Shown: piece by piece, positions 45,812-61,997 of the stretch | How positions within the stretch are numbered: position 1 is the first letter of the stretch | How the letters are laid out: every line of letters begins with the position of its first letter | Source: Candidatus Hecatella orcuttiae | GTDB lineage: Archaea > Thermoproteota > Bathyarchaeia > Hecatellales > Hecatellaceae | Reading direction: 5' to 3' | NCBI GenBank assembly: GCA_002011035.2 | Contig: MTLY02000002.1 | Location: 372,001-436,000, forward strand | Length of the DNA: 64,000 bases | Notes under the pieces: generated by a model | Seen by the model: the letters and a program-made list of their open reading frames with translations, nothing else | Database searches by the model: none | Told to the model about the DNA's origin: nothing | Position numbers and translations under genes: made by a program

Positions 45812-46140
45812 GGGAGAACACCCCGCCTCCACGCCTCCTTCCACACGTCCATGTAAATCCCCCTCATATCCTCACACCCCTCCCGTTTTCCCAAGGGGGC
45901 TTCTCGCTAGCGGAGGCAAATTCCCCCAGCCCCCGACTTCCCCACCCTTCACAGGGCTGTGTCGAAAACCCTAAAAGCCCACCCATGCCCTAGGGAGGTT
46001 GCTGAAAAGGGTCGGGTGCACCGGAAACCCAGCCGCTGGAACCCGCAGGCCTTGGGGCCGGCGGGGCATGGGGCGGCCTTCCGCCTAAGCCAGCTTCCTT
46101 TCTCACCCGGCCTTCAGGGTTTTCTCCGAGGTGACGGCTT
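45812..46140 (+). other. 329-base stretch without a secure gene
   Basis: No RNA gene, integrase fragment or copy of the downstream tRNA end is visible here. One frame is open from a GTG at 45959 (MSKTLKAHPCPREVAEKG…, later GDGFWEV) and runs into the gene after it in a different frame; a minus-one shift near 46155 would join them. This could be a decayed or frameshifted gene, but codon evidence is weak. Confidence 0.3.
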
Positions 46141-46332
46141 CTGGGAAGTCATCGGAACCTCTACCTCCGCCACCTCCGCCGGGAGGCGGAGAGGCTGTTC
46201 AAGGAAGCCTACCACGACCGGGAGAAGGCGGAGCTGGTGGCCCTAGCCGACTACCCGCTGCTGGACATCCGGAGGGGGGAGGTGCTGCGAAACCCCCACT
46301 ACGTCAACCCCAGCCTGGAGCGCCTCCTCTGA
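46141..46332 (+). CDS. Small helical protein (63 aa) before the methyltransferase
   Basis: A convincing charged helical sequence (NLYLRHLRREAERLFKEAYH, then ADYPLLDIRRGEVLRNPHYV) in a frame with no ATG and no GTG in its first half. CTG at 46141 has GAGGTGA six bases upstream, so CTG is the likely start. A stop lies just before this site in the same frame. Its TGA overlaps the methyltransferase's proposed CTG (CTGA). Function unknown; probably viral. Confidence 0.55.
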   Translation: MGSHRNLYLRHLRREAERLFKEAYHDREKAELVALADYPLLDIRRGEVLRNPHYVNPSLERLL

Positions 46333-47141
46333 CAGCCCGGCCCAAAGGCCGGTGGGGTCTCCCCCACAGGCTTTTCCAAGGCCCCGCCTACCAGGGCGCC
46401 GCCGGGCCCGTGGCTGTGGAGGCGGACGAGGAGAAGATAGCCCTCCGTCTTCAAGCCTACCGGCTCTGGCCCCAGCGGACGGTGGTGGACCTCTACGCGG
46501 GGAAGGGCTTCCTCAGCTGGCTCTACGCCCGGGAAGGCTGTGAGCGGCTCATCTGCGTGGAGAAGAACCCTGAATATTTTGCGGTGTTGAAGCGGAACTT
46601 GGCGGAGTTCGGTGAGAGGGTGAAGCTGGTCCGGGCGGACAACCTCCGATGGCTGGAGCGAGGTGGGCTGTCCCCCGAGGAGCCGGTGACCTTCGTGGAC
46701 TTCGACGCCTTCGGCATCCCCGCCCGGCTGCTGCAGCGGTTCTTCACCGTCCACCCCATTCGGAGGGCTTTGGTGATGGCGGTCACCGACGGGCTGCTGT
46801 TCAACTTCCGGCGGATGAGCAACGCTGACCTCCGTAGGCTTTACCTGCAGGATTTTTATTTGGGCGGCGAAGCCGGGCGGCCGCTGAGCATCCAAGACCT
46901 GGGGGAGTACGCTTTCCAGATCCAGCGGACGCTGCTGGACATCTTGGCCATGCGCCACGGAGCCCAAGCCTACCCTCTCTATTTCAAGGTGAACCGCCGC
47001 TGCACCGTCGCCTACTCCGCCTATTTGGTCCTGCCCAAATTCGTGGGCGCTGTGGACTTTAAGCGCTATGTAGGTTTGAGGAGGGTGAAGACGGGGAGTG
47101 CCGCAGTATCCTTCGAGGGAAGTCTTGGACAGGCTGGCTAG
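46329..47141 (+). CDS. SAM-dependent methyltransferase, Trm1-like fold
   Basis: A class I methyltransferase of about 270 residues. Motif I is VVDLYAGKGFLSWLYA, motif II the Glu in LICVEKNPEYF, then VKLVRADNLRWL and the catalytic-region TFVDFDAFGIPARLL, which resembles the D-x-D-x-F-G-x-P of tRNA guanine methyltransferase Trm1, followed by VMAVTDG. The target could be tRNA or DNA. CTG at 46329 gives the family-like GPAYQG stretch; GTG at 46410 is the alternative. It lies at the head of the viral genes. Confidence 0.75.
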   Translation: MTARPKGRWGLPHRLFQGPAYQGAAGPVAVEADEEKIALRLQAYRLWPQRTVVDLYAGKGFLSWLYAREGCERLICVEKNPEYFAVLKRNLAEFGERVKLVRADNLRWLERGGLSPEEPVTFVDFDAFGIPARLLQRFFTVHPIRRALVMAVTDGLLFNFRRMSNADLRRLYLQDFYLGGEAGRPLSIQDLGEYAFQIQRTLLDILAMRHGAQAYPLYFKVNRRCTVAYSAYLVLPKFVGAVDFKRYVGLRRVKTGSAAVSFEGSLGQAG

Positions 47142-54832: not shown

Positions 54833-55759
54833 ATGGCTGAAAGATACATAGTAGTAGGCGAAGAAACCACCTTCGGCTCGCCGGTGACCCCTGACAAGTA
54901 CATCGACATCCGCCGGGAGGCTGTGGTTTTCGACGTCGGCGTCATCCCCGTCGAAACCGTGTACAGCCGGGACACCCGCAAATACGTGTTCGGCAAGGCC
55001 CTAGCCCGAGGGCCCATCGACTTTGCCGTGGAGCCGGAGAACGTGGCCCACCTGTTCAAGTGGGCGCTGGGCAGTGTGACTACCAGCGGGGCAGGACCCT
55101 ACACCCACGACTTCACCCCGGCGGACACCGTGAAAAGCTTCACCGCCATCATCAACCCGGAGCAGGAGACCTACGGCTTCTTCCGAAAACTCAGCGGCTG
55201 CCTGGTGGAGCGGCTGACCCTCGAATCCGCCCTCGACGTGCTCACCGGCTCCGTGGAAATCGTGGCAGCAAAGGAAGAAAAAGACACAGCCTTCACTCCG
55301 TCGGTTTCCCTCTCCCCGCTGGCGCCCTTCGTCTTCCACGAAGCCACCCTGACACTGGGCGGTGCCGACAAGTCCAGCGTCCTCAAAGCCTTCAGGCTGA
55401 CGGTAGGCAACAACCTGCCCGTCGACGACATGTACGCCCACGGCGACAAGCATCTACGCCGCATCCTCGTGGGCCGGCGGGAGGTGGAGGTGCAGATGGA
55501 GCTGGCCTTCGAGGACTCCGCGGACTACGACCGCCTGCTGGCGGGGACGGAGGTGGCGGCTTCCCTCAGCTTCGTCAAGACCGCGGGCAGCGCTGAGCTG
55601 CTCATCGACCTCCCCCGCATGGTCTACCACAGCGACGTGGCGCCGCACATCGCGGGAAGGGACCCCTTCACCGTCGTGGCCCCCTGCCAAGTGCTCTACG
55701 ACTCCGCCGCCGGCTATGAGGTGAAGATTCAGGTCAAAAACAACGTGGCCGGCTACTGA
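54833..55759 (+). CDS. Tail tube protein
   Basis: A 308-residue strand-rich protein of the tail-tube type: RYIVVGEETTFGSPVTPDKY at the N-terminus, YVFGKALARGPIDFAVEPEN, GPYTHDFTPADTVKSFTAII, the LTLESALDVLTGSVEIVA stretch and the end VVAPCQVLYDSAAGYEVKIQ. The fold (two beta sheets repeated) and position before the chaperone and tape measure fit. An AAAAGGAGGTGAAA leader is an excellent ribosome binding site, fitting high expression. Confidence 0.88.
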   Translation: MAERYIVVGEETTFGSPVTPDKYIDIRREAVVFDVGVIPVETVYSRDTRKYVFGKALARGPIDFAVEPENVAHLFKWALGSVTTSGAGPYTHDFTPADTVKSFTAIINPEQETYGFFRKLSGCLVERLTLESALDVLTGSVEIVAAKEEKDTAFTPSVSLSPLAPFVFHEATLTLGGADKSSVLKAFRLTVGNNLPVDDMYAHGDKHLRRILVGRREVEVQMELAFEDSADYDRLLAGTEVAASLSFVKTAGSAELLIDLPRMVYHSDVAPHIAGRDPFTVVAPCQVLYDSAAGYEVKIQVKNNVAGY

Positions 55760-55786: not shown

Positions 55787-56311
55787 ATGTCTGCGGAGAC
55801 GCCTGCAAGAAGGCTCAGTGTGAAGGAATGGCGGGAAAGCCTAGTCCGCACGGTGGAGGCGCCCAGCGGGCTGACCTACCAAGTCCGCCTGCTGACCTCG
55901 CCCCTCCCCTTCCTGAGGCTTCTCCGAAAGCACGGCTTAGAAGGCGTGGGGGAAGCTCAGGCGGAAAGCTTGGATGTGGCTGAGAAGTCCGACGCCCTGC
56001 TGAGGGACCTCTTCGCCGAATACGTCCTAAACCCCAAGGTGGCGGAGGGCGGGGGAGCTGAAGGCGAAGAACGCTTGGCTTTCTCGGAGATGCTGGAGGA
56101 GGACAAGGCAGTCCTCTTCAACGCCATAGCCGAGAAGTTCCGTTTTCTTCGCAGCGAAGACAGCCAGCCCCCTCACCCCAGCCCTGCTGGGGGAAGCTCT
56201 CCTCCTCCTAGGCGGGCTGCTGGGGGAAGCCTACCACCGCCTCCCCAGCCGGGTTCTCGCCCTCCCAGCCGAGGAGCTGGCTCTCAACTGGACCTGCCTC
56301 CAAGAGGCTAA
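55787..56311 (+). CDS. Tail assembly chaperone (gpG-like), zero-frame product
   Basis: The meaningful part runs to about residue 119 (…FLRLLRKHGLEGVGEAQ, FSEMLEEDKAVLFNAIAEKF), then becomes Pro-rich sequence (PPHPSPAGGSSPPPRR) that is only the shadow of the frame in use downstream. Tail chaperones coat the tape measure and are often made as a short and a frameshifted long form, which fits here. It follows the tail tube and precedes the tape measure. Confidence 0.8.
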   Translation: MSAETPARRLSVKEWRESLVRTVEAPSGLTYQVRLLTSPLPFLRLLRKHGLEGVGEAQAESLDVAEKSDALLRDLFAEYVLNPKVAEGGGAEGEERLAFSEMLEEDKAVLFNAIAEKFRFLRSEDSQPPHPSPAGGSSPPPRRAAGGSLPPPPQPGSRPPSRGAGSQLDLPPRG

Positions 56312-56381
56312 GAGGGCCTTGGCCCAAGCCTCCAGCCTCAGCGCTGAGATCCGTCGACGCCGGGGGGAGCTGGGCCTCTAG
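56129..56381 (+). CDS. Frameshifted extension of the tail chaperone (gpT-like)
   Basis: In the +1 frame, after a TAG at 56126-56128, a good protein reads FFAAKTASPLTPALLGEALL, YHRLPSRVLALPAEELALNW and CLQEAKRALAQASSLSAEIR to a TAG at 56379-56381, with no ATG, GTG or TTG before it. A slip on CGT TTT CTT (56141-56149), tRNA-Phe moving from UUU to UUC, joins it to the chaperone. The final product would be about 196 residues. Either programmed frameshift or a lost base. Confidence 0.7.
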
Positions 56382-56391
56382 CAGGTGGACG

Positions 56392-56637
56392 GTGGAGGAT
56401 GTGAAGCTTCGAACCGGCTTGGGAGCCGTCTTATGGGCGGTGGGCGTGGGGCTCATGGCGGAGAAGCTGCTTCGCTACGGGGCTCTCTACACCTATCCTC
56501 CCCACCTCTTGGACCACGGCCTCTACGGCCTCATTTTGGTCGCCTTATCCCTGCTCCTGCTGTCCAAGCAGGAGAAGCCGGTCCGGGGTGGGGCTCTCCG
56601 AAGGCCGGAGGACGGAGTAACCGCGGCCGGAGGCTAG
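56392..56637 (+). CDS. Small membrane protein (81 aa)
   Basis: Two hydrophobic segments (GLGAVLWAVGVGLMAEKLL and LYGLILVALSLLLLSKQEK) with a basic tail: a helical hairpin with holin-like layout. It lies between the tail chaperone and tape measure. A lysis or membrane role is possible but inferred from layout only. Start GTG at 56392 or the GTG three codons later. Confidence 0.55.
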   Translation: MEDVKLRTGLGAVLWAVGVGLMAEKLLRYGALYTYPPHLLDHGLYGLILVALSLLLLSKQEKPVRGGALRRPEDGVTAAGG

Positions 56638-56786
56638 GTTTTCAAGTCTGGAAACCAGATGGCGTAGCTTCCGCACTTCCAGCAGCGGCTGCCGGTGACG
56701 ACGAACAGGCGGCCGCCTTTGATTTCAACCTTGGTGTCTCCTGGTATTTCCCTGACCTCCCCGCAGGAGGCGCATTTGACCTTCAT
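56634..56786 (-). CDS. Zinc-ribbon micro-protein on the opposite strand (50 aa)
   Basis: MKVKCASCGEVREIPGDTKV then RCWKCGSYAIWFPDL gives a clean C-x2-C…C-x2-C zinc ribbon. GGGGAGG precedes the ATG. It is the only gene read leftward inside the viral cluster, converges with the membrane protein gene (overlap of four bases) and faces away from the gene after it (overlap of two). Function unknown; maybe a DNA- or RNA-binding regulator. Confidence 0.55.
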   Translation of the reverse strand: MKVKCASCGEVREIPGDTKVEIKGGRLFVVTGSRCWKCGSYAIWFPDLKT

Positions 56787-56997
56787 GGCCTCCCCTAAAA
56801 TGATTCGCGAAACTCAGCCCTTTAACTCTTTCAGCAACCCCGGTCCTTGGGTGGTGAAGACGGCCGCGGAGCAGATAGGTGACATTCTGAAAAACGCCAG
56901 GGACCTAGGCTACAGGCTGCTGGTCATCCAAACCCGCAGCCGGCTGTTCGCTGTCCCCCTCAAATCCATCCGAGAGGTTAGGCTGGTGAAAAAATGA
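56785..56997 (+). CDS. Small hypothetical protein (70 aa)
   Basis: MASPKMIRETQPFNSFSNPG then KTAAEQIGDILKNARDLGYR and LFAVPLKSIREVRLVKK: a short helix-strand protein, no family recognised. ATG at 56785 or 56800. Its stop overlaps the tape-measure start (ATGA), so it is coupled to it. It may be a tail completion protein, by position only. Confidence 0.5.
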   Translation: MASPKMIRETQPFNSFSNPGPWVVKTAAEQIGDILKNARDLGYRLLVIQTRSRLFAVPLKSIREVRLVKK

Positions 56998-58340
56998 GCG
57001 CAGAGCAAGCCCGCGTCGCCATCATCCTCGAAGCCCAGAACAAGGCCAAAGCCGTCCTAGCCGAAGCCCAACGGGACGTGCGCAGCTTCAGCCAGCAGGC
57101 ACAGGCCTCAGCTCGAGGCGCCGGCCAAGCAGCCGACCGCATGGGCCAACGCATGGCCGCGGCCGCCCGCACCAGCCAAGTCAGCTTCAGCCAAGTCTCC
57201 ATGGGCATGACCACGCTGGCCGCCAGCGCCATGAACCTCTACAACGCCTACGACCGCATCGGCACCGTGCAAGCCCGGGTGGCCGCCCTCCAAGCCAGCT
57301 ACAAGGCGGCTCAGGACGCTGTGGCCGCCGCCCAGCTGAGGCTGAACAAGCTGGCTGAGGCGGGAAAAGAAGGCAGCGAGGAATACCGCATCGCCCAGGA
57401 GAAACTGGCCACCGCCCAGCAGCGCCTCGCCGCCTACGAGGTGAACAAAGCCTACATTCAGATGGCCATGTCGGTGCTGCCGGCGGTGATGGGCAGCATG
57501 CAGGCGCTGCAGGGCATGAAGGGCATGGGCGGCCTGGTCTCCGTCGCCCCCAAGGTGGTGGCGGCCATGCACAGCATCCGCACCGCCTCCTACGGAATGC
57601 TCGGCCCCTTAGGGCTGCTGATCGCCGCTGCTGCGACCCTCTACCTGGCGTGGACCCAGAACTGGGGTGGGATCCGCGAAAAGGTCGGCGCGGTGGTGGA
57701 GTGGTTCAGCAGCGTCTACACCCACTACATTCAGCCGACGTTGGAGGCGATTGTGGGTGGTTTCCAGTGGCTGGCGGACAGGGTGACGTGGCTTTGGGAC
57801 CGCACCCTCGGCCCCATCGTGGAAGGCGCCAAGAGGCTCTACGACGCCTTGGTTGGACGGTCCGTCTTCCCTGAGCTCATGCACCGTCTCGAAGCCGTCA
57901 CCGCCAAGGGGCTGGGGGAAACCGTGGCCCTCTGGCATTTCGCCTCCCACCGCATCGCCGCCTACACCCAGGCCATCTTGGCCAAGATGACCGTGTCCCA
58001 GAAGGCAGCTAGGTTCTTCGCTGAAACCGCTGTGGCTCCGGCCTTGGCTCGGGGAGGCTTCGCCGGGGTCACATCCCGCGGCCAAATCCTAGCCGCCAGC
58101 ATCCCTCGGGCTGAGTATCTCCGGGGCTTGGAGGAAAGCCTCCGCGTCAGCCGGGAGGTCTACGGCTACGGCCCTGAGCATCCTGCGGTGCGGCGCTATG
58201 AGGCCGCCATCGCCGAGGTCAGAGGCATCACCATCATCATGAACAACCAAATTCAAAGCCCCGCCGACGAGGTCCGCCTTGCCAAGCGGGTGGGCGTGGC
58301 GGTGGTGGACGCTGCAACCCTCAGGAAGGGACCCCTCTAA
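56994..58340 (+). CDS. Tail tape-measure protein
   Basis: 448 residues, long helical N-terminus (about 1-160) with heptad-like Ala/Gln-rich coiled coils (AVLAEAQRDVRSFSQQAQAS, AAQDAVAAAQLRLNKLAEAG), then hydrophobic segments (GPLGLLIAAAATLYLAW at about 200) and a C-terminal helical domain. This architecture and the position after the chaperone are those of tape-measure proteins that set tail length. It is short, predicting a fairly short tail. Confidence 0.88.
   Translation: MSAEQARVAIILEAQNKAKAVLAEAQRDVRSFSQQAQASARGAGQAADRMGQRMAAAARTSQVSFSQVSMGMTTLAASAMNLYNAYDRIGTVQARVAALQASYKAAQDAVAAAQLRLNKLAEAGKEGSEEYRIAQEKLATAQQRLAAYEVNKAYIQMAMSVLPAVMGSMQALQGMKGMGGLVSVAPKVVAAMHSIRTASYGMLGPLGLLIAAAATLYLAWTQNWGGIREKVGAVVEWFSSVYTHYIQPTLEAIVGGFQWLADRVTWLWDRTLGPIVEGAKRLYDALVGRSVFPELMHRLEAVTAKGLGETVALWHFASHRIAAYTQAILAKMTVSQKAARFFAETAVAPALARGGFAGVTSRGQILAASIPRAEYLRGLEESLRVSREVYGYGPEHPAVRRYEAAIAEVRGITIIMNNQIQSPADEVRLAKRVGVAVVDAATLRKGPL

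Positions 58341-61900: not shown

Positions 61901-61997
<97 letters not shown>

Follow-up and report, generated by a model that had tools for sequence, protein, structure and literature searches.

The 64,000-nucleotide stretch analysed here (hereafter the window; positions 372,001 to 436,000 of contig MTLY02000002.1) is part of contig 2 of the 1.75-Mb genome of Candidatus Hecatella orcuttiae, a member of the Hecatellales (an order of Bathyarchaeia), and it harbours a tailed provirus. The tailed-virus module (approximately 48-62 kb) comprises terminase, portal, HK97-type capsid, neck, tail tube, a putative tail assembly chaperone gene (the subject of this report), tape measure and tail proteins. 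The chaperone gene is placed between those of the tail tube and the tape measure (Table 1), and this order is the same in relatives. The start of the tape measure protein resembles the product of the gene immediately 3' of the chaperone gene in a genome of the same archaeal family (G003; G and L numbers denote the genomes and loci compared), and the nearest named relatives having the chaperone gene are Candidatus Hecatellales metagenome-assembled genomes.

Two overlapping open reading frames (ORFs) that a frameshift could join occupy the chaperone position, and the second has no start of its own, as in the G/GT arrangement. The first (frame 0) reads ...AIAEKFRF and then LRSEDSQPPHPSPAGGSSPPPRR..., a proline-rich continuation that remains open for 165 nt past the junction and stops at 56311. 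The preliminary description of this DNA had proposed a +1 frameshift here, on the grounds that frame 0 turns from natural protein into a proline-rich shadow where a protein in the +1 frame begins, and the sequence between 56126 and 56381 is as it was described: the +1 frame opens after a TAG located 17 nt upstream of the slip codon, ends at another TAG (56379-56381) and contains neither ATG nor GTG, its single TTG lying 175 nt past the slip codon. The overlap holds CGT TTT CTT (56141-56149), and translating TTTC as one step (i.e. a passage from UUU to UUC) yields the seamless fusion that had been predicted, an unbroken protein of 197 amino acids (aa).

Table 1. Features of the chaperone junction and its surroundings (coordinates are those of the window).
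Feature	Position	Strand	Evidence or remark
Methyltransferase-like gene	46131-47138		just before the provirus
Tail tube protein gene	54833..55759	+	Pfam Phage_tube_2, E 6.9e-28; PHROG tail protein; upstream neighbour and search anchor
Frame-0 ORF, putative tail assembly chaperone (predicted G-like product, 174 aa)	55787..56311	+	ORF; fold search with residues 1-120
TAG in the +1 frame	56127..56129	+	upstream limit for the frame change
CGT, codon preceding TTT	56141-56143	+
Candidate slip site TTT_C (TTT at 56144-56146)	56144..56147	+	in-frame TTT_C at the junction in 27/27 loci
CTT, A-site codon	56147-56149	+
+1-frame extension, predicted T-like part (77 codons and stop)	56148..56381	+	homologous +1 frames in relatives; purifying selection
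Zinc-ribbon-like protein (50 aa)	56634-56786	-	between chaperone and tape measure
Tape measure protein gene	56994..58340	+	PHROG tape measure, E 2.1e-6; downstream neighbour
tRNA gene	61901-61997	+	end of the tail module

Three genomes of the same archaeal family (G002, G003 and G005) encode both halves of the chaperone with 36-49% identity, and here too the +1 frame holds the second half; their junctions read GGC TTT CTT, TTT TTT CGG and TGG TTT CGG, respectively. Since both halves occupy the same relative frames in all three, and since an in-frame TTT_C is rare, it is confirmed that the observed layout is more than chance. Scans of viral contigs with the chaperone itself as query returned no matches; the protein is too divergent for such scans, and therefore the tail tube was used as an anchor. 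Its matches in other families of Bathyarchaeia led to G078 (TTT TTT CAA), G140 and G141 (both CTT TTT CGC), while the tail tube profile recovered 22 IMG/VR contigs and, across the phylum, matched 43 of 398 genomes. A +1 layout located 3' of the tail tube, in every case with an in-frame TTT followed by C, was present in L049-L053, L055-L057, L059-L061, L066, L078-L080 and L082-L084, and the same motif marks the junctions of the isolates HSTV-2 (TCC TTT CGC), HRTV-4 (GGG TTT CGC) and Methanobacterium virus Drs3 (AAA TTT CCT).

Real +1 pairs were told apart from mechanical ones by visual inspection of the ORFs, prior to tabulation of the motif. Mechanical overlaps were rejected when the conserved second half lay in the -1 frame (L075, L089, L092, L096) or when no recognisable chaperone pair could be discerned (L067, L070). 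After removal of L053 (a copy of L051), 27 loci with the +1 layout remained (23 without the near-duplicates L052, L060, L079 and L083); they belong to Bathyarchaeia, other Thermoproteota, IMG/VR contigs and the three isolates, and are archaeal or likely archaeal. The comparison of homologues at the nucleotide level, which the preliminary description had suggested as a check, showed an in-frame TTT_C kept at the junction in 27/27 loci and frames that stay separate; the adverse case that it had named, homologues encoding the fusion in a single frame, occurred in none of these 27. Homology in the +1 frame begins directly at the junction. The public records of HRTV-4 (L108, 27531-28140) and Drs3 (L099, 4080-4665) lack a chaperone fusion, and in both viruses the first ORF has TTT_C at its end, where the +1 frame is open. 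The comparison adds the predicted fusion to these two records and the missing chaperone half to uncultured archaeal viruses.

The sequence TTT followed by C accounts for 108 of the 41,944 codons (0.26%) in long ORFs of the compared loci, and for 4 of 4,552 codons in the chaperone genes outside the junction. Its chance of occurring within the allowed stretch is 3-12% per locus, and it was found in every locus; we stress that the loci are related, and that TTTC was the search criterion for the final table and is therefore invariant there by construction. The flanking stops confine the site to a few codons: in most loci the +1 frame is closed by a stop 8-35 nt upstream, and in L078 and Drs3 frame 0 ends 15 nt beyond the site.

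Purifying selection acts on each half in its own frame. Among close pairs, nonsynonymous divergence (dN) is lower than synonymous divergence (dS) both upstream of the site, in frame 0, and downstream of it, in the +1 frame (dN and dS of 0.045/0.226 before and 0.023/0.257 after for L049/L052, 0.074/0.763 and 0.161/0.687 for L078/L079, 0.027/0.306 and 0.060/0.180 for L082/L083). All the aligned second halves have a proline in common, followed in nearly all of them by a serine (in a motif like RPSExL).

Codon usage (computed within the window only, for provirus and host genes) shows that the provirus employs TTT at 1.8 per 1000 codons vs 31.5 for TTC, and the kept TTT stands out because of this rarity. 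CTT, the codon that occupies the A site in the window, G002 and L061, reaches 6.1 per 1000 codons in the provirus vs 17.0 in the host genes. Across the set, the A site is an arginine codon of the CGN type in 18 of 23 loci vs 12.8% of C-initial codons in the background (nominal p 1e-12, relatedness ignored), an enrichment to which the residue specified by the new frame may contribute. With CTT at this place, the window falls within the wider UUU_C class but outside the strict UUU_CGN form. The sole strong signal beyond TTTC is a G at the next position (17/22 loci); an upstream Shine-Dalgarno-like motif, present in 9/22 loci vs 21% of control stretches, is a weak one.

The identity of the gene as a tail assembly chaperone, which had been presumed from the start, is supported by its position in the gene order and by its predicted fold. 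The N-terminal half was modelled with a pLDDT of 86, and the best matches to this fold (residues 1-120) among viral models came from actinobacterial phages and are tail assembly chaperones (E from 3.7e-5, probability 1.00). A sequence search of the PDB with the protein returned no chaperone.

We reason that the provirus gene is highly probably subject to programmed +1 frameshifting: the recurrence of the same TTT_C at the same junction in 27 loci means that the feature is real, and that it is very probably used (as far as comparison of sequences can tell). Most ribosomes would stay in frame 0 and produce a G-like protein of 174 aa, while on others the P-site tRNA-Phe would slip from UUU to UUC, giving rise to a GT-like fusion (the two forming a pair like lambda G/GT). 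By analogy with lambda, binding of the tape measure protein may fall to the G part and recruitment of tail tube subunits to the T part. Four observations weigh against this interpretation: the top fold match in the PDB, the HK97 chaperone 2OB9, is not significant on its own (E 0.29); the chaperone has no match among Pfam or PHROG families; UUU is followed in the window by CUU, a codon that is not uncommon among host genes, and not by the common CGN; and RNA structure downstream of the site did not exceed that of shuffled sequences (mean z 0.13).

Four other explanations deserve consideration, each of which we regard as very improbable. An extra base in the T-run, introduced by sequencing or assembly error or by decay of the gene, could split an ordinary single-frame gene, and the run of four T is a possible error site in sequences that are mostly metagenomic; furthermore, the +1 half of G003 (L040, 9987-10482) holds one in-frame TAG (a recent nonsense change, an error or recoding). 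Such accidents are, however, difficult to reconcile with an identical break that recurs at an identical position in 27 loci (some of them from individually sequenced virus isolates), with sites that have only three T (G005, L055, L080), or with purifying selection on both halves and the lack of a single-frame version among the +1 relatives. A -2 frameshift, a kind of event known for phage Mu, would lead to the same downstream frame, and about 10 of the 23 loci have the TT before TTT that would permit re-pairing. Nonetheless, this TT is absent in the other 13, the codon in the window would be GTT (the first base of which tRNA-Phe could not pair with), and the conserved C after TTT would be left unexplained.

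The second half could also be a separate protein, translated by re-initiation or from a rare start codon without any fusion, since ATG, GTG or TTG occurs near the junction in the +1 frame of some relatives, and in a second tailed provirus of G003 (L035, 1208-2015) the ORF in chaperone position and +1 frame has its own ATG and may be separately translated. In the window, by contrast, the only candidate start is the late TTG, and frame 0 stays open far beyond the site, therefore offering no stop for re-initiation; neither the homology that runs from the junction onward nor the conserved TTT_C would be accounted for. Least credible of all is polymerase slippage on the T-run, with ribosomes reading the resulting mixed mRNAs in frame, as T-runs of four or more are found at many sites but several others (G005, L055, L080, L082) have only TTT between other bases, which is generally too short for polymerase slippage. 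A +1 shift at UUU_C explains all the loci.

In a further 20 loci the -1 frame carries the second half, frequently at a heptamer that includes a Phe codon (G_GGT_TTT in L072 and L074, A_AAT_TTC in L075 and L081, C_CCT_TTT in L095). This layout was observed at the same position, 3' of the tail tube, in L072, L074-L076, L081 and L086-L098, and therefore the direction of the shift changed during evolution; five bacterial phages with related tail tubes all have -1 layouts, as does psiM2. The window itself does not conform to the classical -1 pattern (X_XXY_YYZ), its second ORF being in the +1 frame. On the tail tube tree the direction label must change at least four times, and well-supported branches make two of these changes unavoidable, although tail tube and chaperone may have been exchanged. 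The occurrence of +1 and -1 shifts at the same place suggests that the direction can switch while the two-product outcome is kept. A broader proposition, that archaeal tailed viruses of Thermoproteota and Euryarchaeota alike use UUU_C as a general signal for +1 recoding, and that their chaperone genes switch in evolution between +1 and -1 around the same Phe codon, perhaps tuned by tRNA-Phe modification, is tentative and, taken as a whole, somewhat doubtful: the comparison supports its first part (the generality of UUU_C in these viruses), while the link to tRNA-Phe modification is speculation.

Frameshifting of this kind is already known. The UCC_UUU_CGU site was proven in influenza PA-X, and a UUU_C slip class with restricted A-site codons was predicted (Firth et al. 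2012, PMC3498833); UUU_CGN was later described in amalgaviruses (Nibert et al. 2016, PMC5052127). Among haloviruses, HSTV-2 was judged very likely to use +1 and others -1 frameshifting (Atkins et al. 2016, PMC5009743), and a 2020 study pointed to TTT-CGC as the +1 site of the HF1 group (PMC7230728). A review of archaeal recoding from 2021 records a single demonstrated frameshift (-1, in fucA1) and has +1 only as the apparent case of HSTV-2 (PMC8211752), and a survey of Bathyarchaeia viruses does not mention frameshifts (PMC10848311). As far as the compared literature shows, the lineage, the breadth and the CUU A-site form are new, and so are the relatives with -1 slips at the same Phe codon.

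The closest parallels differ from the window in several respects. The HF1-group haloviruses and HSTV-2 (Hafunaviridae) infect halophilic Euryarchaeota, possess a tail sheath and differ in chaperone sequence; their A-site codon is CGC instead of CTT, and frame 0 stops 24 nt after the site, compared with 165 nt in the window. Influenza A PA-X shares the +1 re-pairing of P-site tRNA-Phe from UUU to UUC (PMC3498833), established in that system and which we infer for the window, but it is a case from a eukaryotic RNA virus, experimentally proven, with an unrelated protein and CGU at the A site. Plant amalgaviruses likewise shift +1 at UUU before a C-initial codon, conserved by comparison (PMC5052127), yet they are RNA viruses in which the product is a polymerase fusion and CGN is nearly always kept, whereas the archaeal set also has CTT, CAA and CCT. 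Lambda G/GT matches in its two products from one start (the long one made through a frameshift) and in the location of the gene between tail tube and tape measure, while its shift is -1 (PMC5009743). In Listeria phage PSA, +1 frameshifting also affects tailed-phage structural genes (PMC5009743), but those of the capsid and tail shaft rather than a chaperone, the slip occurring on CCC beside a stop codon or a pseudoknot. The comparison constitutes strong evidence, at the sequence level, that archaeal tailed viruses share a conserved +1 site. Being short, needing no obvious RNA structure and fitting into a reporter, the site makes +1 recoding in archaea directly testable.

Three neighbouring genes merit mention. 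The 50-aa protein encoded between chaperone and tape measure has two CxxC pairs and is without a Pfam match; no corresponding insert separates the two genes in G003. The methyltransferase-like gene has weak matches to CbiT, TRM5/TYW2 and Taw2 models, all far below the cut-offs. The tRNA gene was missed by the default ARAGORN scan and named tRNA-Phe(aaa) by the intron scan, a name that we rejected from the anticodon arm (CTCGG TTTGCAA CCGAG), which reads tRNA-Ala(TGC), and there is therefore no link to tRNA-Phe; the gene carries an insert near the D arm.
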